The position numbers and the translations under genes are program-made. A DNA stretch of 39,026 bases from Gammaproteobacteria bacterium (GTDB taxonomy: Bacteria > Pseudomonadota > Gammaproteobacteria > Burkholderiales > Sulfuricellaceae). The stretch covers positions 1-39,026 of the forward strand of contig JAHJGO010000014.1 in the NCBI GenBank assembly GCA_018824405.1, read 5' to 3'. How positions within the stretch are numbered: the first letter of the stretch is position 1; each line of letters starts with the position of its first letter. Shown here one piece after another: positions 1 through 38,822 of the stretch. The notes below the pieces were generated by a model that was not told where the DNA came from, ran no database searches, and was given only the letters and a program-made list of their open reading frames with translations.

Positions 1-2154
1 CATTTCAACGGGAAATTCTGCTCCATCCCGGCGCAAGGCCATCAACTCGTTCGTTCTGCCTACGGCCGCACCTTCGCCGGTCTGGGTGAAACGCGCCAGG
101 CCAGCGTATGCCGCCTCGTGAAAACGGGGCGGTACAATGAGATGGTGCATCGGCTGGCCGATGATTTCTTCCTGGCTATAACCGAACATTTCCTCAGCGG
201 CAGGATTCCACAGCAAGATTCTTTCATCTTCGCCGTTGATGAGGACGAAGGCGTCGCGGATATTTTCTATGGTGACGCGGAAGCGCTCCTCGCTATCGTG
301 CAGGATTTGCTCCGCCTGTTTGCGTGCGCTGATGTCGGTGAAGCTCACCACCGCGCCTGTCAAAACGCCCTGGTCGTCAAAGATGGGCGTGCTGACATAT
401 TCGACCGGGAAACTGGTGCCGTCATTGCGCCAGAAAACCTCGTTGTCCACGCGGTGGACTTTGCCGTCCCGATAAGCTTCATAGATGGGGCATTCTTTGC
501 CCGGATAAGGCGTGCCGTCGGCCCGCGTGTGATGATGCAGGGCGTGCATGGGCTGGCCGACCAGCTCTTTTTCTGACCATTGCAGCATCGCCGTGGCCGC
601 CGGATTGACGAAGGTGGCGCGGCCTTCGGTGTCCAGACCGAAGATGCCCTCGCCCACCGAGCTCATGATCTGCTTTCTGAGTTTGCCCTGCCGCCGGATT
701 TCTGCGGACATCTTCTTCCACTGCGTGATGTCGCGCGAGGAAATGGCAATGCCGTCGCCCACCCGCACGACCTGGTGGCGTACCCACTTGGCCTTGATCT
801 CCGGTATGTCGATGGGAAATTCTTCCTCCAGCGGTGTGCCGGTGGTCGCCACCGCGACGTACTTGTCGAAAAAGCCGCCGGTGCGATTGACTGGGAGCAG
901 CTCGCACAGCTTCTGCCCGACGACCTTGTCACGCGCCATATCCAGCATTTGTTCGGCGCGGGGGTTGAGGTCGGTAAACTCGAAATCGAGAATTTCGCCC
1001 TGTTCGCCGCGTACGCTTCTGAGGATGAACAGGGCGTCGAGGCTGGCTTCGGCCACCGCGCGGAAGCGGGCCTCGCTGGCCTGGACGGATTCGGCCATGA
1101 TATCGAAGGACTGGGCCAGCCGGCCGATATCGTCCTCGGTGCGGGGTAACCCGGTGCGGGCGGAGAGATCGCCGCTGCCGAAGCGGGTTACGGCCAGGAG
1201 AAGCCTTCGCAAAGGAAACAAAACCAGCTTTTCACCACCCCAGATCACCAACGCGATGACCAGCAGCAGCACCGTCGCGGCAACGGACAGCGAGGTGGTG
1301 AGTTCCCGCTGGGTGGACGCCTCCACGACCGCCTTCGGCACGCTCAGCCACAGTATCATCGGGCCGGAAACGGTCTCCAGCAGCGGCGTGAAGGCGACGA
1401 TGCGGGGCAATCCGTCCAGCCCCCGCTCCTCGATGGTGCCTTGATAGCTTTTGGCGGTAACGGCCTGAAACAGGGGGGTTTGCGCGATACTCTTGTCTGC
1501 GCGGTCATCATCGCCGTCTGGGTGACGTACAAGCACTATGCCGCTGCTGTCCACCGCCACCAACCGGGTGCCTTCCTGAAGCCCGTCCGTGCTCAGTTCC
1601 TGCCGCAGCCAGCTCAGGTCGAGTGATAGAAAGAGTACGCTGGTTACTTGCCCGGCATCGTTTCGCACTGCCTTGGCGAAGACGACAGTGGGCTGGTTCA
1701 CGGAGCGGCTCGTCAGTGCCCCGCTGACGACCATGTTTTCAGATTTAAGAACCGACTGAAACCAGTCCCAGTCGGCAAGGTTGACACGACCTGCGGCAGG
1801 GTGCGCCGTGCAGGCCAGATCGCCGTTGGGCAGTACCTTGCCGATCTGGAGGAACGCTGCTTCCTGTTTGGCCCGTGCTGCAAGGAATTTTTCGCAGGAT
1901 TTGATAGAAACGTCAGAACGTAATTCGGCACGTGTCATCAGATCGTTCAGGATCGCTTCGGCTCGCGTCTGTATCTGCTGCTGCCGGGCGGCGATCAACT
2001 TGGCATTGTGCAGAAGGTGCGTGGTGGCATTGGCGATCTCTTCAGCCCGATGCGCGATGGTGTGCTGTACGATCATGGCGAAGATGACGGTAAACGCCAC
2101 CACTATAAGCAGGATGAGGCGACCGCGCAGACCAAGGGTAAAAGTGGTTTTCAT
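1..2154 (-). CDS. Membrane-bound multi-PAS sensor protein, partial (runs off left edge)
   Basis: The reading frame is open from an ATG at 2154 to the window edge, giving at least 718 codons with the C-terminus missing. Residues about 8-28 form a first membrane helix. An extracytoplasmic sensing region of roughly 240 residues follows, probably Cache-like. A second helix lies near residue 285, and a HAMP-like linker at about 305-360. Three PAS-type regions then begin near 365, 495 and 623; the last ends in an RRDG-FPVE motif typical of PAS folds. The family pattern is signal detection in the periplasm passed through HAMP and PAS to an output domain. That output (histidine kinase, GGDEF/EAL or other) is outside the window, so the activity is unknown. 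The ATG overlaps the stop codon of a possible small upstream ORF, and there is no strong Shine-Dalgarno directly before it. Confidence 0.85.
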   Translation of the reverse strand, partial: MKTTFTLGLRGRLILLIVVAFTVIFAMIVQHTIAHRAEEIANATTHLLHNAKLIAARQQQIQTRAEAILNDLMTRAELRSDVSIKSCEKFLAARAKQEAAFLQIGKVLPNGDLACTAHPAAGRVNLADWDWFQSVLKSENMVVSGALTSRSVNQPTVVFAKAVRNDAGQVTSVLFLSLDLSWLRQELSTDGLQEGTRLVAVDSSGIVLVRHPDGDDDRADKSIAQTPLFQAVTAKSYQGTIEERGLDGLPRIVAFTPLLETVSGPMILWLSVPKAVVEASTQRELTTSLSVAATVLLLVIALVIWGGEKLVLFPLRRLLLAVTRFGSGDLSARTGLPRTEDDIGRLAQSFDIMAESVQASEARFRAVAEASLDALFILRSVRGEQGEILDFEFTDLNPRAEQMLDMARDKVVGQKLCELLPVNRTGGFFDKYVAVATTGTPLEEEFPIDIPEIKAKWVRHQVVRVGDGIAISSRDITQWKKMSAEIRRQGKLRKQIMSSVGEGIFGLDTEGRATFVNPAATAMLQWSEKELVGQPMHALHHHTRADGTPYPGKECPIYEAYRDGKVHRVDNEVFWRNDGTSFPVEYVSTPIFDDQGVLTGAVVSFTDISARKQAEQILHDSEERFRVTIENIRDAFVLINGEDERILLWNPAAEEMFGYSQEEIIGQPMHHLIVPPRFHEAAYAGLARFTQTGEGAAVGRTNELMALRRDGAEFPVEM

Positions 2155-2228
2155 GAATTTTCCGACTTCAGGGGAAGGGCTGCCAGCAGACGTTGAAACA
2201 CTGTGGGGGAAGAATCAGAAGTCATCAT
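2151..2228 (-). CDS. Possible 25-residue upstream ORF coupled to the PAS sensor gene
   Basis: An ATG-ATG start at 2228 is preceded by GGAG five bases upstream. The ORF encodes 25 residues, with a short leucine-rich stretch (FQRLLAALPL), and its TGA overlaps the sensor ATG as ATGA. The sensor ATG itself has only weak ribosome-binding sequence. This arrangement would let translation of the small ORF feed the sensor by coupling. No known leader-peptide family is recognised, and the ORF could be chance. Confidence 0.35.
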   Translation of the reverse strand: MMTSDSSPTVFQRLLAALPLKSENS

Positions 2229-2499
2229 GGTTGCTCCATTGCTAGCCGATCTCGGTATGCAAGATTAAGAATATTTCACGAGTATGTATATAGATAAATT
2301 AAAGATTTATTTCTAGAGCATATTACCTCCAGGCAAACGCAAGTAAGCTGCAAAGAATTGGTGGTCCGCTTTTGGCACACAGTTATCATAGAGGGTTACA
2401 AACTGCCTGCCATAAAGCCGCCGTTTGCAGAAAATATTTGCATCAGGCAGCCCCGCTACTGGGTGCCGCAATCAGCGCAATGGCGATGAGATAGTCGCA
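2229..2499. other. AT-rich intergenic region upstream of the sensor gene
   Basis: No gene is supported here. The part at 2260-2330 is distinctly AT-rich and is the likely promoter region for the minus-strand sensor transcript, although no convincing -35/-10 pair could be fixed. A weak inverted repeat (CTGCCTG at 2403, CAGGCAG at 2444) lies downstream of the next minus-strand gene and has no T-run. Confidence 0.4.
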
Positions 2500-2904
2500 T
2501 CAGCTAGCCCTCGGCCTACCCTTGGCGGTGGCCTCCTCAAATTTCAGCGCGGTCAGGCAGGTGTTGACGTGGGCCACCAGCTTGTCGTGCCGCACCAGTA
2601 GTCCGGGCTTTGCTTCCTCGAATGCCGCCCTCAACGCTGCGGCAGCCTGATCGGCGGCCTTGCTTGTCACTACATTCTGCGCGCGCATCGCGGTCTCGAC
2701 AGCGCTGACCGCATCTCCCTTGGATTCATCGGTTGTGAGGTAGACCGCCGACCGAGTTTCCCTAAGGTCCCCGGCCGGGATCTTCATCCGGTTCCCGGCA
2801 GTCCAGGGGATGCCTTTCGTGATGTGAATTTGCAGTAGTATCGCGTCCGTCGCGGACAGTTTCCCGAACACTCGCTCGACGGTGCCACGGGCCGCGAAGT
2901 TCAT
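2500..2904 (-). CDS. Hypothetical protein with RelB/DinJ-like N-terminal half
   Basis: The ORF encodes 134 residues from the only ATG in frame. The N-terminal third, from FAARGTVERVFGKL through LQIHITKGIPW and on to a KIPAGDLRETRSAV-type segment, resembles RelB/DinJ antitoxins. Those have a ribbon-helix-helix region, then an AI-L-Q---KGIPF motif and an IPN-ET-like motif. In-frame residues upstream of the ATG, back to the stop at 2974-2976, look as if they continue the fold, so the true start may be a rare non-ATG codon or the 5' end may be damaged. The C-terminal 70 residues are alanine- and lysine-rich and go beyond a normal antitoxin length. No RelE/YafQ toxin gene is adjacent. The assignment is by pattern only. 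Confidence 0.5.
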   Translation of the reverse strand: MNFAARGTVERVFGKLSATDAILLQIHITKGIPWTAGNRMKIPAGDLRETRSAVYLTTDESKGDAVSAVETAMRAQNVVTSKAADQAAAALRAAFEEAKPGLLVRHDKLVAHVNTCLTALKFEEATAKGRPRAS

Positions 2905-3132
2905 GCGCTCATCGGCTTCAATGATGGATTTGGACGAGGCCTTGACGCTCGCATTCGCGCGGGTTGCGGCGTTGCCTACGGGTAACGGGGAGTATTGCGA
3001 AGACAGGCCCTCGAAAACAACTAAAAGCTGCCTGGATGGAACAAAAAGGCGCCGTTCGCGCGGGGTGGCTCGCTATACGAACAAGGAGCGGCGCCACTTC
3101 CGGCGACGCAAGGTTACGAAAGGAGCATCCAT

Positions 3133-3357
3133 TTGAGACGAAACACAACGAGAACCACCGCCTACCGATTGCTCATCGCGATTGCCGCGGTCGAACAGAG
3201 CGAGCGCGTGCTGCGCGACACGATAGCCGACCTGAGCGAACTGATGCAGGGCGAGGCAGACCCTACAAGCGACCCGCTGTGGGATGAAGTGCGGGCTAGG
3301 TTGCAGCGACTTAGCTACCGGACCGCGGCAGCGCAACCCCAGGCAATTGCAGGGTAA
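3133..3357 (+). CDS. Small hypothetical protein, first of three clustered genes
   Basis: Starts at TTG (3133), seven bases after a clear AGGAG at 3121-3125, which is why this start is preferred. The product is 74 residues, mostly helical in appearance (RLLIAIAAVEQSERVLRDTIADLSEL), soluble and with no signal peptide. The family is not recognised. Two further small plus-strand genes follow at 3413 and 3784, and all three look like accessory genes of the integrated element. A role in plasmid maintenance or conjugation is possible but nothing in the sequence shows it. Confidence 0.5.
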   Translation: MRRNTTRTTAYRLLIAIAAVEQSERVLRDTIADLSELMQGEADPTSDPLWDEVRARLQRLSYRTAAAQPQAIAG

Positions 3358-3412
3358 GTAGGCACAAAACGACAAAGCAACCCCGGATTCCGGGGAAATC
3401 AGGAGAAAAGGA

Positions 3413-3787
3413 ATGAGATACATGGGAATGACGAATACATCGAATCGCAAAGGCCTGCCGGTGAAAACAAAAGGTCCCGATCAGAGCGCGGTGCGCGTTG
3501 CTGAAGACTTGGTCAAAACGCTCCAGGTCCTGGATGCCACAAGGGTTAGCTTACGCAAGTATGTTTTGAAGCAGGCGACACCTCACTCTCAAGCGCCGGC
3601 GCTTGCGGCAGTGGACAAGCTGATTGCGGAGGGGGCCCGGGGCTTACTTCAGGCGACTGAGCACGTGTGTGCGATCGATGGAATTCCGTTGAAATTGCGG
3701 CGCGAGCATGTGGCAGTGGCCGAGATGTTTGATCGGATTTTGGCGGATTGCGGGGACATATTCAAGAGTGTGGGAGAGCGGCAATGA
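3413..3787 (+). CDS. Hypothetical protein of 124 residues in the element
   Basis: The ATG at 3413 is preceded by AGGAG at 3401-3405 and an AAGGA nearer the start. The product appears helical, soluble and basic at the N-terminus. It has no membrane segments and one cysteine pair too scattered to suggest a metal site. No family is recognised. Its stop overlaps the start of the next gene as ATGA, so the two are probably translated together. Confidence 0.55.
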   Translation: MRYMGMTNTSNRKGLPVKTKGPDQSAVRVAEDLVKTLQVLDATRVSLRKYVLKQATPHSQAPALAAVDKLIAEGARGLLQATEHVCAIDGIPLKLRREHVAVAEMFDRILADCGDIFKSVGERQ

Positions 3788-3999
3788 GCGAGATCGAGCA
3801 GTTAAGCGAGGCGCTGTCGGAGCTGGAGCAAGCGAGATTAGCTGCGGCGGGTGCGCTGTTTCGGGTGATATGCCTGCGAGGGCAGGGTGGCACGAACGAC
3901 AACCCCGCCTGGGCGCCACTGGATAGCAGGCTGAGCAACTTGGGGATGCCTGGGACGGGAACGCCAAGTGACGAATTTTTAGGAAGATGCTGTTTCTAG
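3784..3999 (+). CDS. Small hypothetical protein coupled to the preceding gene
   Basis: The chosen ATG at 3784 overlaps the upstream TGA by the ATGA arrangement, and GAGAGCGGCA just before it gives a modest ribosome site. An in-frame upstream start at 3748 is less likely because of this overlap. The product is 71 residues; its first 25 are an acidic, leucine-spaced helix (IEQLSEALSELEQARLA) suggestive of a short coiled coil. The family and function are not recognised. Confidence 0.5.
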   Translation: MSEIEQLSEALSELEQARLAAAGALFRVICLRGQGGTNDNPAWAPLDSRLSNLGMPGTGTPSDEFLGRCCF

Positions 4000-4175
4000 C
4001 GAGTTGCCACGATAAGCACCAATTCAACACCTGCCTGGAGCAATCCTCGCAGGTGTTTTTCGTCCGTGCACGGGTAGGACTGGTTGGAAAGGCGGGGTTG
4101 ACGGGCTCGGTGCGCGGCGACCGGGGCCCAGGTGAAACCTCGTTTGGTGGCGAGGATGGTGAGCCTCGGATTCTC

Positions 4176-4206
4176 ATGGGTTTTGGGAGTTTTTTCGTGC
4201 GAGAGG
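4176..4206 (+). repeat. T-tract motif, copy 1 (ATGGG...TTTTTTCGTG)
   Basis: ATGGG at 4176 is followed by a G/T-rich spacer, then TTTTTTCGTG at 4190-4199 and a G/A-rich tail. The same order of elements recurs at 4381 on this strand and at 6026-6053 on the other strand. Confidence 0.5.
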
Positions 4207-4240
4207 AAGCCGGAGGGGGGCTCAGCGAGAAAGGCACGTT

Positions 4241-4290
4241 GACGTGATAGCGCGTACATGTAATGCGCGGAGAGCGAGCACTGGCGAGTG
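4241..4290 (+). repeat. 50-bp module, isolated upstream copy (R0)
   Basis: It begins GACGTGATAGCGCGTACATG. It aligns without gaps to the B-type modules downstream of the initiator over its first 35 bases, with about five differences, while its end (GCACTGGCG) matches the A-type modules. It is therefore a mosaic relative of both types. Confidence 0.65.
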
Positions 4291-4380
4291 GGTAGGGTAG
4301 GGAAGGGTGAGCCTGGTGGTGGGCCGGTGCCACACATACAAGTAGCGGGAGGACTTGGCGGGGAGGGGAGCTGCTAAGTC

Positions 4381-4412
4381 ATGGGTTAGTGGAGTTTTTT
4401 TTCGTGCGGCGG
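4381..4412 (+). repeat. T-tract motif, copy 2
   Basis: ATGGG at 4381 is followed by GGAG and TTTTTTTTCGTG at 4395-4406, then a GCGGCGGGG tail. This is the same element order as at 4176. Confidence 0.5.
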
Positions 4413-4489
4413 GGAACGCGCTGATTACGGTTAAGTAAATACATTTGGAGGGAGGGCTGACCTTTTTTATACCGGTAATCGCCCTAAAC

Positions 4490-4520
4490 TTGGCCGTCGC
4501 GAGGGGTTAGTGTCTATACA
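4490..4520 (+). promoter_or_regulatory. Possible promoter for the copG-like/rep pair
   Basis: TTGGCC at 4490-4495 and TATACA at 4515-4520 are 19 bases apart and about 30 bases before the first start codon. The spacing is longer than ideal. TAAAAT just downstream is an alternative -10 element. Confidence 0.25.
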
Positions 4521-4550
4521 TAGGGTAATCAATTAAAATACGGACACATC

Positions 4551-4772
4551 ATGCAGCTACGCCAACAGAACCTACCCACGACCACCGGGCGACCGCGCAA
4601 CCCCGCATCCCGAAGGCTTATTCCCGCGCGGGATGAATCGGCTCTGCTCATCCGCGTCAACGCGGAGCGCATGGCCGCGCTGACCGCGCTGGCCGGGAAA
4701 TACGAAACAACGAAGCAGGCTTTGGTCACGCTGGCGCTGGATAGGCTCCTGGGGGTAAAACATGGCCACTAA
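4551..4772 (+). CDS. Small ribbon-helix-helix-like (CopG/Arc-type) protein
   Basis: The product is 73 residues. The first 25 are basic and proline-rich. From about residue 26 there is a LLIRVNAERMAAL strand-helix pattern, then a turn (GKYETTKQALV) and a final helix (TLALDRLL), the order expected of a CopG/Arc-type ribbon-helix-helix DNA-binding fold. The gene overlaps the replication initiator start by 11 bases, which implies co-translation. In plasmids, a small RHH protein encoded just before rep commonly represses rep transcription and sets copy number, and that role is inferred here. The fold is judged by eye. The nearby repeats are candidate targets. Confidence 0.6.
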   Translation: MQLRQQNLPTTTGRPRNPASRRLIPARDESALLIRVNAERMAALTALAGKYETTKQALVTLALDRLLGVKHGH

Positions 4773-5847
4773 CATCACGGTCTATCGCGACCCGGAAAAG
4801 CGCACACCCGTCACAGAGGTCGGCGCATACCCGCGAGACATTAAGGATATCTTAGCTATGCTGGACCTCCCTATATTTTCCCTATCGCTGGGCAAAGATT
4901 CCGAACCGTTTGAGTGGAATAATGCCGTTCCGTCCCGGAATATACCTGCCACGATGTCCCTGGAAGTTGATTGCAGCGGTAAGCTTGGCCGCGCGAACTT
5001 GCAGGATAAGATGATACTGGTGTACGCGGTCAGCATCCTAGCCACCGAGCGTGCACGGGGGAATCCCTGTGCGGACCGCAAAGTGCGGTTCCAAATGAAG
5101 GATTTGCTGTCCTGGATGGACCGGTCCGCCGGTGGGAAAGAGTACGCGAATATCGAACGAGGCATCGACCGGCTGCTCAGCACCACGATATTCACAAACA
5201 TACGGACCGGGGGTAAGCGGGCCACCGAAGGATTCCATTTGCTAGAATCAAAAAAAATCGTTGGGGACGACGGCGAGACCTACGCGGTCGGGGACCCTCG
5301 TCCGCGCGGAACGCAGGTCGAGCTGGTAATTTCGGAGTGGGTATTTCGCTCGATCGCGACCGTGGACAATAGCGCGTACGCCACCGAGATTTTAAAAATC
5401 GCGCCGGCGTACGTAAAGCTCAGGAGCAACCTGGAGAAGCGCCTCTACGAGATCGCGCGCAGGCATGTCGGACACAAGCAGCGAGGGTTTCTCATCGGAA
5501 TCGAGGAGCTGCGCTCAAAGTGCGGCAGCAAGGAGCCCCGGCCAGACCGCTGGAAAAAGCAGCTAAAGGCCATCATCGCCAAGGATACGCTTCCGGAGTT
5601 CTACTTCAAGATTGAGGAGGACAGGGTCGAGGGCGACAAGGTACGGTTCTTCAGGCGCATTGAGCTACCGGCCATCTCCAAGACTACCTGGTATCAAGCC
5701 GTGCGCTTCATGACCAACGAAGACGGTTCGCATAAGCACGAGTTCTTCTGGGTGGACAAGGACAATAACCCGGAATCCCTGAAGTCATATTCGCGTCTAG
5801 CCATTAGACGCCGGCGGCGCCCAAGAACGCCCAAGGAGGAGGGTTGA
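4762..5847 (+). CDS. Plasmid replication initiator, RPA (RepA) family
   Basis: The protein has 361 residues. From about residue 38 it follows the RPA family (replication initiator protein A, PF10134) in order: LPIFSLSLGK; an LQDKMILVYAVSIL helix region; a VRFQMKDLLSWM segment with GGKEYANIERGIDRL; the TTIFTNIRTGG motif; a TEGFHLLESKKI segment; and a second winged-helix-like region with LEKRLYEIARRHVGHKQRGF and an RWKKQLKAII helix. Members bind origin DNA and start plasmid replication. The last 12 residues are strongly basic. The ATG at 4762 follows a GGGGG tract and lies inside the end of the RHH-like gene. Repeats begin at the stop codon, as expected if the origin adjoins rep. The gene looks intact, so the element may still replicate when excised, though nothing here proves it. 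Confidence 0.85.
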   Translation: MATNITVYRDPEKRTPVTEVGAYPRDIKDILAMLDLPIFSLSLGKDSEPFEWNNAVPSRNIPATMSLEVDCSGKLGRANLQDKMILVYAVSILATERARGNPCADRKVRFQMKDLLSWMDRSAGGKEYANIERGIDRLLSTTIFTNIRTGGKRATEGFHLLESKKIVGDDGETYAVGDPRPRGTQVELVISEWVFRSIATVDNSAYATEILKIAPAYVKLRSNLEKRLYEIARRHVGHKQRGFLIGIEELRSKCGSKEPRPDRWKKQLKAIIAKDTLPEFYFKIEEDRVEGDKVRFFRRIELPAISKTTWYQAVRFMTNEDGSHKHEFFWVDKDNNPESLKSYSRLAIRRRRRPRTPKEEG

Positions 5848-6010
5848 CGGGTCATCATGTACACGAAATGCCCGGAGAACAAGCACTGGCGTGGGTTTCG
5901 AATATGCTTACTGGCGACGTGATAACGTGTACATGAAATGCCAGGAGAGCCCCTATCGGCGCTGGTCACCAAAACCCTAACTAAAGAAACACCCAAAACA
6001 AACCTCAACC
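5846..6010 (+). repeat. Long direct repeat, unit 1 (50-bp modules A1 and B1)
   Basis: Module A1 (5846-5895) carries ATGTACACGAAATGCCCGG. Module B1 (5916-5965), 70 bases on, carries GTGTACATGAAATGCCAGG. The eight-base cores ATGTACAC and GTGTACAT are reverse complements of each other although the flanks run in the same direction. The unit ends in a C/A-rich tail with AAAACCCTAACTAAAGAAAC. It starts at the last bases of the rep gene. Confidence 0.75.
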
Positions 6011-6025
6011 TTCCTGGCCGGTACC

Positions 6026-6053
6026 TCCCCCCCCACGAAAAAATCTCAACCAT
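6026..6053 (-). repeat. T-tract motif, copy 3, inverted
   Basis: Read on the minus strand this gives ATGGTTGAGA, then TTTTTTCGTG and a run of eight G. It matches the two plus-strand copies upstream of rep, so the motif flanks the initiator in inverted orientation. Confidence 0.5.
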
Positions 6054-6088
6054 CAGAACCCGCTGCGGCACCAGGCTAGAAAATTGAC

Positions 6089-6254
6089 AACGGGTCATCA
6101 TGTACACGAAATACCCGGAGAACAAGCACTGGCGCGGGTTTCAAATATACTTACTGTCGACGTGATAACGTGTACATGAAGTGCCCGGAGAGCCCCTATC
6201 GGCGCGGGTCTCCAAAACCCTAACTGAAGAAACATTCAAAACAAAACCTCCACC
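6089..6254 (+). repeat. Long direct repeat, unit 2 (50-bp modules A2 and B2)
   Basis: This unit repeats 5846-6010 at a constant offset of 243 bases. Module A2 is 6089-6138, module B2 is 6159-6208, and the tail again contains CCAAAACCCTAACT. The A-to-B distance of 70 bases is the same in both units, and only scattered substitutions separate them. Confidence 0.75.
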
Positions 6255-6279
6255 TGTTAAATCCGCCTCTGTGAGGGGA

Positions 6280-6320
6280 GGCTTACCCTGAAACGCTAAA
6301 AGCCAAACCAAGGGTAAGCC
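6280..6320. repeat. Inverted repeat, 10-bp arms, 21-base spacer (1)
   Basis: GGCTTACCCT at 6280-6289 is matched by AGGGTAAGCC at 6311-6320. The arms are perfect and there is no T-run, so this is not a simple terminator. Confidence 0.6.
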
Positions 6321-6627
6321 CTTGTGAGTTCCCTCGCGTCCCGGGAAACCAACCACAACCCACAAACCCAAAAGCAAAAGCGACTGGATGGAGAAGGAGC
6401 GTATGGGTTTCCATCGCGGGCTGCGATAACGGGCGCCGATCTTCAGCGTCACCCCACTCCGAACAGGCTGCACAACCTCTATTCGGCGCCGTAGAGCGCC
6501 GCTTACTGCCCCACATCCTCCCCTTCCAACTAGTCAGCTTTTAAGCAGAAGCACCCGCGACATTCCCCTTTAAACAGAATCCGGAGCCCGTCCCCGCCCT
6601 AAGGAGCCACCACGGCGCTAGGTTTTT

Positions 6628-6668
6628 GGTTAATCCTCGTTTTTCGCCTTTGAATTTCAGGATTAACC
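6628..6668. repeat. Inverted repeat, 10-bp arms, 21-base spacer (2)
   Basis: GGTTAATCCT at 6628-6637 is matched by AGGATTAACC at 6659-6668. The arm length and spacer are the same as in the pair at 6280, with a different arm sequence. Confidence 0.6.
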
Positions 6669-6847
6669 TGCGATTCACCCCTAGATTTCGCATATCCCTC
6701 GCACCACCAAAGCACGCACGCTAGCCTACGCTGTGAACCGCGACACCCGCTGGGCAACCGAAGCCGCGCAGATGCCCGAAATACCGGACCGGAGGATGCC
6801 TCACGGCGAGCGTCGTAGTGGCTTTTCGCAGGTGACTTTTCCCACGG

Positions 6848-6876
6848 TTGGCCAATGCGCTGTCCGGTGCTACCCT
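6848..6876 (+). promoter_or_regulatory. Candidate promoter giving a leaderless hicB-like transcript
   Basis: TTGGCC at 6848-6853 and TACCCT at 6871-6876 are 17 bases apart. The ATG at 6884 falls seven bases after the -10 element, where transcription would begin, and there is no Shine-Dalgarno. This suggests the TTG at 6848 is a -35 element and not a start codon. Confidence 0.45.
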
Positions 6877-6883
6877 ACACCCC

Positions 6884-7060
6884 ATGGAACGCAACCTAAC
6901 TTACGAGCTAACTCCCGAAGATGGCGTGTTCATCGCACGCTGCCTCGATGTCGAGGTGGCAAGCGACGGCCCAACCGAGGAGGATGCCGTAGTAAACCTC
7001 CAGGAAGCGCTGGAGCTGTACCTCAACGACCACGATGTCCGTTTGGCGCCGCGTGCTTAA
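6884..7060 (+). CDS. Orphan HicB-like antitoxin-fold protein
   Basis: The ORF gives 58 residues from the ATG at 6884. The sequence YELTPEDGVFIARCLDVEVASDG, then PTEEDAVVNLQEALELYL, follows the HicB fold: a strand pair with a 'dG-f-A-c-d' motif, then 't-eeA--nl-eAlelyl'. HicB proteins usually neutralise a HicA RNase encoded next to them. Here the neighbours are on the opposite strand and none resembles HicA, so this is an orphan or belongs to a regulatory branch of the family. The usual C-terminal DNA-binding domain is absent. An in-frame TTG 36 bases upstream is judged to be promoter sequence. Confidence 0.6.
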   Translation: MERNLTYELTPEDGVFIARCLDVEVASDGPTEEDAVVNLQEALELYLNDHDVRLAPRA

Positions 7061-7248
7061 CGCCTGAGCGGCCCCGCCATCGCACCGCATTCCAGCTCCG
7101 CCCACTCATCCGCTTGAGCCAGCTGCGCCATGAACGCGTCATGCGTCCGGTCCACGTAATTCCGCACACGCTCCTGCGCCGCCGCCATCTCTGCCCGGCC
7201 TGTCGACGGCCGCCGCTGCTTGATCTTGCGCTGCCACTTATTCCGCAT
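7057..7248 (-). CDS. Small hypothetical protein, downstream partner of the 7238-7735 gene
   Basis: The product is 63 residues. The first 20 are very basic (RNKWQRKIKQRRP) and the rest forms an acidic helix-like segment. Its ATG lies 11 bases inside the end of the preceding minus-strand gene, so the two are probably co-translated. It ends convergently on the hicB-like gene, overlapping by four bases. No family is recognised. Confidence 0.4.
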   Translation of the reverse strand: MRNKWQRKIKQRRPSTGRAEMAAAQERVRNYVDRTHDAFMAQLAQADEWAELECGAMAGPLRR

Positions 7249-7735
7249 TGCGGTCCCCTCCGCGCATCACCCAGCTCCTCCACTCCTCGGGCGTGAGCTG
7301 CCGGGTCTCAGCACTCGCCGAGGTATCCACCTCACCCGTGTCAATCCACCGCTCCCACCCGCCCGCAGTAAGCCGCATCTCCGGGCACCCCCCCTGCTCG
7401 CATTCCTCCGGGTACGTCTCCCACACCTGAGTCATCAGTATCCCGTACCTGAACCGCGCATACTCTGCATCCTCGTTGTGGACCTTGCCCGATGCCAGGT
7501 ACGCGCTCAACGTCAGATACTCCTCACCCAGTTGCCCACCCGCACGCTGCTCCGCCACCGCCTCCCGCGCAACCTCCAGCGCTTCAGGCTGAGCCAGCAT
7601 CTCGTCGGTCGTCCACCAGTCCACCGCCTGGCCCCGCATCTCTGCCCCACGCTTCAGCACGTACGCCCCATACCGCTCAGCTCTCTGCTGTGCCTGCATA
7701 TACCGCCAGAGCTCCGCACCCTCCGCACCTCCCAC
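7238..7735 (-). CDS. Hypothetical protein of 165 residues
   Basis: The listed start is GTG at 7735. The frame is open for 11 more codons upstream without an ATG, so the start is uncertain. The product is acidic and rich in Trp, Tyr and Glu (AVDWWTTDEML, TAGGWERWIDTGE, LTPEEWRSWV), with no signal peptide or membrane segment. The repeated W-containing acidic patches are unusual. No family is recognised. It forms an overlapping pair with the basic protein encoded at 7057, so an acidic/basic protein pair can be suspected but not shown. Confidence 0.45.
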   Translation of the reverse strand: MGGAEGAELWRYMQAQQRAERYGAYVLKRGAEMRGQAVDWWTTDEMLAQPEALEVAREAVAEQRAGGQLGEEYLTLSAYLASGKVHNEDAEYARFRYGILMTQVWETYPEECEQGGCPEMRLTAGGWERWIDTGEVDTSASAETRQLTPEEWRSWVMRGGDRNAE

Positions 7736-7741
7736 CTCCAG

Positions 7742-8024
7742 GCCATCCCTAGTTGTCGTTGACCATATTCAACTTCCTGCGAAAGTTGATGATGAAAGCA
7801 CACTTCGATATTACGAACTTGCATTCACTAGCAAGCAATATACCGCGCCATGATCCAGATGACCTGTTTGCTCACTATTTAGGGCGATCTTAGGTGGGCT
7901 TTGTGCTGAAATATTATGATATAATTTTCGAAATTAGGGGCAGGGTATACAGCCAGGGTACAAAGCAGCTGTTTAGATGCTCGTTAACGTATTGATTTTT
8001 AATTAATTTTATATTGACCGCTGT
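7742..8024. other. AT-rich right end of the element
   Basis: No gene or convincing gene remnant is seen. The AT content rises sharply compared with the preceding 3 kb, especially at 7900-8020. The segment ends at the tRNA-Asp fragment, so it is probably the right terminal region where recombination proteins would bind. No clear directly repeated binding sites were found. Confidence 0.4.
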
Positions 8025-8042
8025 GTCCCGTCCACTCCGCCA
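8025..8042 (+). other. Attachment-site scar: 18-bp 3' end of tRNA-Asp
   Basis: The 18 bases GTCCCGTCCACTCCGCCA equal the T-arm 3' strand, acceptor 3' strand and CCA of a betaproteobacterial tRNA-Asp whose acceptor would start GGAGTGG. The 70 bases before it cannot form the rest of a tRNA. This is what a tRNA-targeting integrase leaves at the distal end of its element. The neighbouring ppiD gene fits, since tRNA-Asp is known to lie before ppiD in related genomes. Confidence 0.75.
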
Positions 8043-8045
8043 AAC

Positions 8046-8075
8046 AAGGGTGAACTTCGGTTCACCCTTTTTTCT
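8046..8075 (+). terminator. Rho-independent terminator, probably of the original tRNA-Asp transcript
   Basis: A perfect 10-bp stem (AAGGGTGAAC with GTTCACCCTT) is closed by a TTCG tetraloop and followed by a T-rich run. It stands three bases after the tRNA fragment and before ppiD, so it appears to be the terminator of the tRNA gene split off by integration. Confidence 0.9.
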
Positions 8076-8135
8076 TTCTCGCAGCCAAATAAAACCGGCT
8101 TTGCCGGCTTGGCAAGCCGTTTACGGGTTAATACT

Positions 8136-10043
8136 ATGCTAGAAGCCATTCGTGTGCATGCTCAAGGCAAAATTGCCAAAGTCATTCTGGTCCTGATTAC
8201 CATTCCCTTCGCTCTATGGGGTGTCGATTCCTATATGAAGGGCGGTAGCGGTGGTCCTGTGGTAGCTTCGGTGGGCGGGATGGAGATTCTGCAAAACGAA
8301 TTTGCAAATACACTCAAGGACCAGCAGGAACGGATGCGCTCGACACTGGGGAAAAATTACGATCCCTCTGTCATGGATAGCCCGGAAATCCGTAAATCTG
8401 TACTGGACGGATTGATCAATCAACGCGTGTTGCTGGCGGATGCGACGCGGGAAGGGCTGGCTGTGTCTGACGCACAACTGGCCAAGTTTATTTCCGGGAT
8501 CGAAGCTTTCTGGGAAAATGGAACTTTTTCCCATGCGCGTTATGAATCGGTGCTGCGTCAGCAAAATATGACTCCTGGCCAGTTTGAGCAGCGTCTGCGT
8601 CAGGATCTGTTGTTGCAGACTGCTCAGGAAGGTGTGATCCGCAATGCGTTTATTCCCAAAGTGGTTGCTGACACCCTGATCCGCATTAATGAGCAAGAGC
8701 GTGAAACCAGTCAGGCCGTGATTCAGATTGAACAGTTCATGTCTCAAGCCAAGATCGAAGCCGCTGCGATCAAGGATTACTATGAAAAACATCAGGATGA
8801 ATTCAAGTTGCCGGAGCAGGCGCGCCTCGAATACGTAGTGCTGTCAGCAGAAAACTTGGCAGAGCAGGTGACTGTGAGCGAAGAAGAAGTCGCGGCTTAT
8901 TATAAAGAGCATGCTACCCAGTTCGGCCAGCCAGAAGAGCGTCAAGCCAGTCATATCCTGATTAACTTGGCAGCCAATGCCAGTGCAGCAGATAAAACGG
9001 CGGCTCTGGACAAAGCGCGCAAGGTATTGCAGGAAGCCAAAAAGAGTCCGGACAATTTTGCACAACTGGCCAAACAATATTCTCAGGATAGCGGTTCTGC
9101 CGCCCAAGGGGGCGATCTGGGCTATTTCGGTCGTGGCGCGATGGTTAAATCCTTCGAAGACACTGCATTCAAGATGGCTGCTGGCGAGATCAGTGATCTG
9201 GTGCAATCGGAATTCGGTTATCACATCATCAAGCTGACTGCGATCAAACCTGCCAAATTGCGCACACTGCAGGATGTGCACGACGAAATTTCCCTGGAAC
9301 TGAAAAAACAGCAAGCCGGCAAGAAATTTGCGGAGAATGCTGAAAATTTCAGCAACATGGTTTATGAGCAAGCAGATAGCCTCGCACCAGTTGCCCAGCA
9401 ACTCGGGCTCAAGATCGTGCAGAGTGGCTGGCTCACCCGAATGGCGAGCGATACCCCGCTGCTCAACAATCCCAAACTGTTGCAGGCAGTGTTTACTGAA
9501 GAGGTTCTGAAAAATAAGCGCAACACTGAGGCTGTCGAGGTTGTTCCCAATACGCTTGTGGCAGCCCGCTTGCTGGAATACAAGGCGGCTAGTGTCAGGC
9601 CGATGGATGAAGTGGCTGCAGCACTGGAACAGCGCCTGCAACGCCAGCAGGCTTCTGTTCTGGCTGTGAAATGGGGCAAGGATGCTTTGGCACAGTTGCA
9701 GCAGGGCAATTCGCCTGCTGGTTTGAACTGGAGCCCTTCCCAGCTTGTTAGTCGTTCCAAGCCGGCTGATCTGGCGCCGGAAGTGTTGAAAGAAACTTTC
9801 AGGGCAAAAGCAGACAAATTGCCTGCTTTTACTGGAGTGGAGAATAAGCAGGGGGGCTTCACCCTGGTCAAGGTGTCAAAGCTGGTTGAGACTGGACCCT
9901 TTGAGGAAGGTCGCAAGCAGGCCTATGCTCAACGTTTTGCCAGCATGCTGGAGCGTGAATATGCTGCGGCTTACCTCTCTAGCCTTAAGCAAAAAACTAA
10001 AGTCGAGATCAGGAAGGACGCTTTGGAGAAAACTGAGCGTTAA
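8136..10043 (+). CDS. ppiD: Peptidyl-prolyl isomerase PpiD, periplasmic folding chaperone
   Basis: The protein has 635 residues from the ATG at 8136, close to the family's usual size. The start gives the standard PpiD opening ([17 protein letters not shown]). The in-frame TTG at 8109 is rejected for that reason. A single membrane anchor lies at residues 13-32, followed by a SurA/PpiD-type N-terminal chaperone region. A parvulin PpiC domain at about 268-366 contains [27 protein letters not shown] and FGYHIIKL. PpiD is anchored in the inner membrane at the Sec exit and helps newly exported proteins fold. The gene stands alone behind the tRNA terminator and converges with serB, with five bases between them. 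Confidence 0.95.

Positions 10044-38745: not shown

Positions 38746-38822
<77 letters not shown>

Follow-up and report, generated by a model that had tools for sequence, protein, structure and literature searches.

Right end of an element probably integrated in the 3' end of a tRNA-Asp gene, beside a ppiD-like gene

The window, that is, the whole stretch of 39,026 nucleotides analysed here, very probably begins with the right part of an element that integrated site-specifically in the 3' end of a tRNA-Asp gene. Positions 1-8024 would belong to the element and positions 8025-8043 would be its attR (probability about 0.93). The integration site, the duplicated tRNA end, the integrase gene and empty sites in relatives were all found, and we infer that the integrase drove the entry. 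Specifically, the integrase encoded on contig C26 would have recombined the chromosomal tRNA-Asp with an attP that itself carried the final bases of this tRNA. The tRNA would have been rebuilt at the left junction, and the original last 18 bases with the terminator would have been left at the right junction, beside ppiD. The event itself is ordinary and clearly illustrates a familiar type; what began as a guess from the sequence is now a mapped integration site, seen empty, occupied, decayed or in tandem among relatives. Three features make up the right junction.

8025 to 8043, plus strand: probable attR core, the displaced tRNA-Asp 3' end of 18 bp with one further shared base (pattern search and alignment to relatives).
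8046 to 8079, plus strand: displaced tRNA-Asp terminator, with a stem at 8046-8069 and then a T-rich tail (scan and conservation in relatives).
8136 to 10043, plus strand: ppiD-like host gene adjoining the element, its start chosen within the open reading frame 8109-10043 (SurA_N_3 and Rotamase domains).

The sequence-only reading had noticed an 18-bp tRNA-Asp 3' end standing without the rest of the tRNA, and this proved correct. The 18-mer, GTCCCGTCCACTCCGCCA, lies at window positions 8025-8042 without a tRNA body, and AT-rich DNA unrelated to that body stands 5' of it. ARAGORN found no tRNA at this position, the sole tRNA of the window being a tRNA-Met at 38746-38822. With up to two mismatches allowed, the 18-mer had two matches in the genome (3,028,462 bases in 29 contigs), both of them exact: the window site, on contig C21, and C26:5253-5270 on the minus strand. 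The latter is the end of an intact tRNA-Asp(gtc) with a tRNA-Val(tac) upstream. That the 18 bases match by chance has practically no probability left and is, on these sequence comparisons, already excluded: the genome held only the two matches, the reversed control pattern gave 0 in the same search, and the sequence after the 18-mer agrees with the post-tRNA sequence of relatives.

The same reading had fixed the end of the element to the base. The border itself stood; its single-base precision did not, because the two junctions have 19 bases in common (GTCCCGTCCACTCCGCCAA), which locates the border to a 19-bp overlap. GC content was considered as a marker and rejected: it is 0.598 at 7001-8000 and falls to 0.501 at 8001-9000, yet it does not mark the border, because host DNA from 11001 is again at about 0.60.

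A UUCG-loop terminator and then ppiD had been read past the orphan tRNA end, and both were recovered. The terminator begins three bases past the 18-mer and consists of a 10-bp stem with a 4-base UUCG loop (8046-8069), followed by TTTTCTTTCT. It was the only terminator-like site in 7700-8200 (mean of shuffles, 0.6), and it came up once more in a scan of the 90 bases past the core, where 10 of 200 shuffles contained a site of this kind. Stronger evidence than these shuffle scans comes from conservation, as the same terminator follows tRNA-Asp in five relatives (G001, G002, G004, G005 and G007) and follows the orphan in a sixth (G006). Among eight right ends of related elements, the scan found a terminator 3' of the orphan in the window, G006, G192 and G164 (10, 7, 30 and 23 of 200 shuffles, respectively, also held one) and none in Rhodocyclus tenuis, G086, G466 and G253.

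The same-genus set comprised eight genomes including that of the window, and the junction region was matched in seven of them; G003 gave no match in either junction search and is hence uninformative. As anticipated, tRNA-Asp joins the terminator and ppiD directly in five of the six other matched genomes. In these empty sites, tRNA-Val and tRNA-Asp lead straight into the terminator. In the alignment, the window joins the empty-site sequence at the 18-mer, and C26 departs from it just after the 18-mer. No orphan end occurred in an element-free relative: the only relative with an orphan, G006, has an element of its own. On one contig of that genome, tRNA-Asp (64-140) and the orphan 18-mer (6010-6027), which is followed by the terminator and ppiD, enclose an occupant of 5.9 kb (L015:141-6009). 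Its cargo includes an erythromycin-esterase-like gene, a PCMT gene and a weak spermidine-synthase-like match. The integrase search gave no match in G006 at E<=1e-30; a relic of 77 bp, 78% identical, is present. Additionally, an intrinsic terminator (12-bp stem and T-run) was observed in G006 where the leader hairpin would stand.

An intact tRNA-Asp with an integrase gene beside it had been predicted at the other end of the element, to the left of the window. Both genes were found together on C26, the tRNA ending in the same 18 bases; that they lie left of the window, which starts at base 1 of C21, and that C26 and C21 carry one continuous element is what we infer. The orientation of the fragment and the tRNA is consistent if the reversed C26 precedes C21, these being two separate contigs. 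The frame of this tyrosine integrase is intact (C26:3530-5152, 540 aa) and matches DUF6538 (PF20172, 1.5e-15) and Phage_integrase (PF00589, 2.8e-08). It begins 100 bases downstream of the tRNA-Asp, in the same direction and on the element side. Its start was placed at the second ATG because the R. tenuis homologue aligns from there, and the distance from CCA to ATG is 100 bases in R. tenuis too. The tRNA pair on C26 is preceded by genes that, judged from their translations, are hupB-, lon-, clpX- and clpP-like. The integrase is followed by IS21 genes and then by the contig end.

No exact overlap of 16-200 bp joining C21 or C26 to another contig end was found among the ends examined. The left part of C26 matches, as repeats, the ends of C14 (88.9%, 826 bp) and C5 (91.8%, 244 bp). 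Moreover, window positions 1-1075 share 96% identity with the C22 contig end; because the C21 start resembles the C22 end and both tips are identical, the assembly breaks in a repeat. An inversion or translocation could also have parted tRNA-Asp from ppiD, leaving the stub as a by-product with no inserted element, and the location of the two halves on different contigs with no linking overlap found would suit such an event. It is nevertheless very improbable: the 18-19 bp occur in two copies, more than a simple break would leave, the integrase adjoins the intact copy, and in G006 an insertion is seen at the same place on a single contig. Integration in tRNA-Asp is the preferred reading, and the window part of the element carries the following cargo.

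1 to 2154, minus strand: Cache-HAMP-PAS sensor gene, truncated where the contig starts (domain match; near-copy at the end of C22).
4238 to 6204, no strand assigned: five iteron-like repeats of about 49 nt, at 4238, 5843, 5913, 6086 and 6156 (repeat search).
4762 to 5847, plus strand: gene, in the right part of the element, for a plasmid replication initiator of RepA type (PF10134, 1.5e-47).

The repeats flank the RepA gene on both sides and include a 156-bp duplication of 92% identity. Together they look like an iteron origin, and replication of the element is suggested. RepA relatives of 29-38% identity were found in three other genomes of 22 in the family, and 1070 plasmid records had RepA matches, all below 60% identity. 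The sensor gene is duplicated at the C21 start and the C22 end, and its copies break the assembly.

For the working of the two ends, we propose, at about even odds, a scheme of arm sites, an integrase gene (int) read from the tRNA promoter, a damping hairpin, a right-end promoter and a shield for ppiD. The integrase would bind repeated arm sites at both ends. In the integrated state, int, 100 nt downstream of a tRNA operon without its terminator, would be read from the tRNA promoter through the damping hairpin. The right-end promoter would run into the displaced terminator and be stopped there, and ppiD would therefore be shielded. After excision, the right-end promoter would drive int across attP. 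The candidate sites at the right end are as follows.

7917 to 7925, plus strand: extended -10-like TGATATAAT, a putative right-end promoter reading towards ppiD (motif; no -35 partner found).
7943 to 7951, plus strand: GGGTATACA, another putative arm site, lying 13 bp ahead of the one at 7956 and differing from the left-arm motif at 2 positions.
7956 to 7964, plus strand: GGGTACAAA, a putative arm-type site for the integrase at a distance of 69 bp from the core (none of 500 shuffles matched as well, and the window contains no other exact copy).

At the left ends, two similar 9-mers stand about 50-75 nt past the CCA, with a spacing of 13 bp in eight of ten and 12 bp in two (counted without a shuffle control). 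Left motifs were picked by hand for each element and then sought in its own right end; for G006, in which the left arm is lost, the motif of the window's genome was used. The set of right ends contained neither G355, whose right end was not found, nor the G192 tRNA-Asp element, and the arm-site and -10 tests did not include the G253 right end (L102), in which just 26 bases precede the core. The left-arm motif recurred in all seven right ends, namely, the window, G006, R. tenuis, G192, G086, G466 and G164, where 0, 11, 0, 1, 1, 3 and 0 of 500 shuffles, respectively, were as good. In six of them one site is 69-73 bp and the other 82-86 bp away from the core, and the poorer site has 1-4 mismatches; in G164 the distances are 92 and 115 bp.

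Five motifs were also cross-matched against the seven right ends, and the result favours a match within each element. GGGTACAAA had 0 mismatches in the window, 1 in G006 and 0 in R. tenuis, and 3 or 4 elsewhere, and CTGTAGCTA and ACCGTACCA each had 0 mismatches in their own element only. One result speaks against it: the G192 motif GTGGTACAC fits the G466 right end (0 mismatches) better than the motif of G466 itself (1 mismatch), so the G192 and G466 motifs are not told apart. The end repeats agree inside a given element and in part vary from one element to another, the pattern to be expected of arm-type integrase sites.

An extended -10 was located 107-108 bp from the core in three of the seven right ends (window, G006 and R. 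tenuis), reading TGATATAAT twice and TGCTATCAT once. The TATAAT at the window -10 was matched by 10 of 500 shuffles, and a -35/-10 scan gave no promoter at 7917. A -10 hexamer within one mismatch was present in four of the seven (10, 8, 15 and 58 of 500 shuffles as good) and absent from the other three (328, 344 and 365 of 500). A strong -10 in every right end was rejected on this count.

The element may instead have entered in the same way and since become immobile, its ends no longer having a function, a possibility that we rate clearly below even. The IS21 genes and other repeats behind the integrase, the same-site G006 element with only an integrase relic, the broken second copy in R. tenuis and the absence of the integrase from all other genomes of the 22 in the family are what such decay would lead one to expect. 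However, the element's own integrase frame is intact at 540 aa, and both of its ends retain arm sites.

The leader between the tRNA and int was folded for ten left ends (70 nt past the CCA), comprising that of the window's genome, two from R. tenuis and seven distant ones; the G533 integrase (L085/L109), at which ARAGORN gave no tRNA, was left out. Predicted folds reached z -3.3 or stronger in six, -2.5 in one and chance values in three (-0.34, -0.86 and -1.27). The leader on C26 had z -5.4, with 0 of 500 shuffles predicted to be as stable, and was more stable than each of 82 other segments of its locus; in six of the ten cases, at least one in four of the other segments of the locus was equally stable. 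By eye, and in three sequences, the stem is apparently kept with altered bases in the C26 leader and both R. tenuis leaders. As a standard intrinsic terminator, the C26 hairpin was rejected, the scan finding none there. In the ten left ends scanned, with G006 taking the place of the second R. tenuis copy, intrinsic terminators were found in two, G164 and G006. Rfam at its gathering cut-offs recognized only tRNAs in L002, L003, L015 and L018.

Rather than attenuating int, the hairpin might be bound, as DNA, by the integrase or a helper protein, or might signal tRNA 3' processing. The C26 hairpin has no T-run, and it is positioned between the core and the arm sites, where recombination proteins could bind; still, we lean against this explanation. 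G006, with int reduced to a relic, has a proper terminator at the same place, and in ICEKp1 the leader stem-loops lower int transcripts, according to the available text of that study (PMC13023037).

A tRNA gene paired with a displaced tRNA fragment is an established mark of islands, as set out in the available text on Islander (PMC4383910). The islands described there share with the present element a restored tRNA, a displaced 3' fragment and a tyrosine integrase between them, and tandems occur among them. Unlike in those islands, the pair here lies on two contigs, presumably of one replicon. The displaced terminator is documented here as well, whereas the word 'terminator' is absent from the Islander main text (PMC4383910). 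For ICEKp1, the available text reports experiments showing that the tRNA-asn terminator is displaced, that stem-loops reduce the tRNA-int transcripts and that the excised element uses a promoter in its 3' end (PMC13023037). As far as that text goes, ICEKp1, ICEclc and ICEEc1 share with our element the displaced tRNA terminator at the 3' end and the stem-loops in the int leader, which here are predicted; the candidate -10 at 7917-7925 may be the counterpart of their 3'-end promoter. The int gene is likewise co-directional with and close to the tRNA, at 161 bp in ICEKp1 and 100 here. In contrast, those elements use tRNA-Asn or tRNA-Gly (PMC13023037), and the element described here uses tRNA-Asp and is known from its sequence alone. 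The terminator, hairpin and arm sites offer a cheap test of whether the ICEKp1 promoter switch holds for a DUF6538-type integrase at tRNA-Asp.

The family-level search found the integrase in its own genome only (1 of 22), and distant relatives were found in three other genomes of 200 in the order (E<=1e-30) and four other genomes of 369 in the class (E<=1e-40). Viral contigs held no stretch matching the integrase patterns. Fifty plasmid records had integrase matches, all below 60% identity, and among the 20 matches listed identities were 22.8-31.9%. ARAGORN scanning of nine integrase loci, that of the window's genome included (L046-L050 and L084-L087), found a tRNA at eight, six of them tRNA-Ser and two tRNA-Asp. 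The integrase relative at L050 has a stop within its frame.

The integrase of R. tenuis strain 2761 (NZ_JACIGE010000008.1) is 69% identical and directly follows tRNA-Asp. Its element resembles ours in integrase type, use of tRNA-Asp, hairpin and arm-site layout; it differs in having its first right junction 10.9 kb away, a reverse transcriptase gene and a second, broken copy behind. The 18-mer copy at that junction, with one mismatch, is both the right end of the first element and the left end of the second, forming a tandem, and the second element has the leader repeats and a broken integrase start. The reverse transcriptase (L018:2798-3979, 393 aa; PF00078, 6e-16; best PADLOC model RT_V, 1.7e-110) is perhaps a defence-type enzyme carried as cargo.

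We tentatively suggest, at somewhat less than even odds, that DUF6538-type tRNA integrases have one grammar of ends: a hairpin after the tRNA, paired arm sites that stand at similar distances in the two ends and agree in sequence inside an element while varying between elements, an outward right promoter and the displaced tRNA terminator of the host reused as insulator for the adjoining host gene. If this is true, the arm motif would follow integrase specificity and could be read from sequence. The literature search found nothing joining a DUF6538 integrase with a tRNA, or tRNA-Asp and ppiD with a genomic island. Two things are fresh as far as the literature was searched: arm motifs matched between elements of the DUF6538 type, and a site documented as empty, occupied, holding a relic and in tandem.

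Two further loci were observed in distant genomes. In G533, an integrase of the same type lies beside a tRNA-Ser 3' end (C100:38165-38180, L109) where ARAGORN found no tRNA, and contig C63 of that genome has an intact tRNA-Ser with an identical end. In G466 (C1:102870-103063, L107), two tRNA-Ser 3' ends, separated by 178 bp and both continuing into an identical stretch of 26 bases, are perhaps the remains of stacked integrations.
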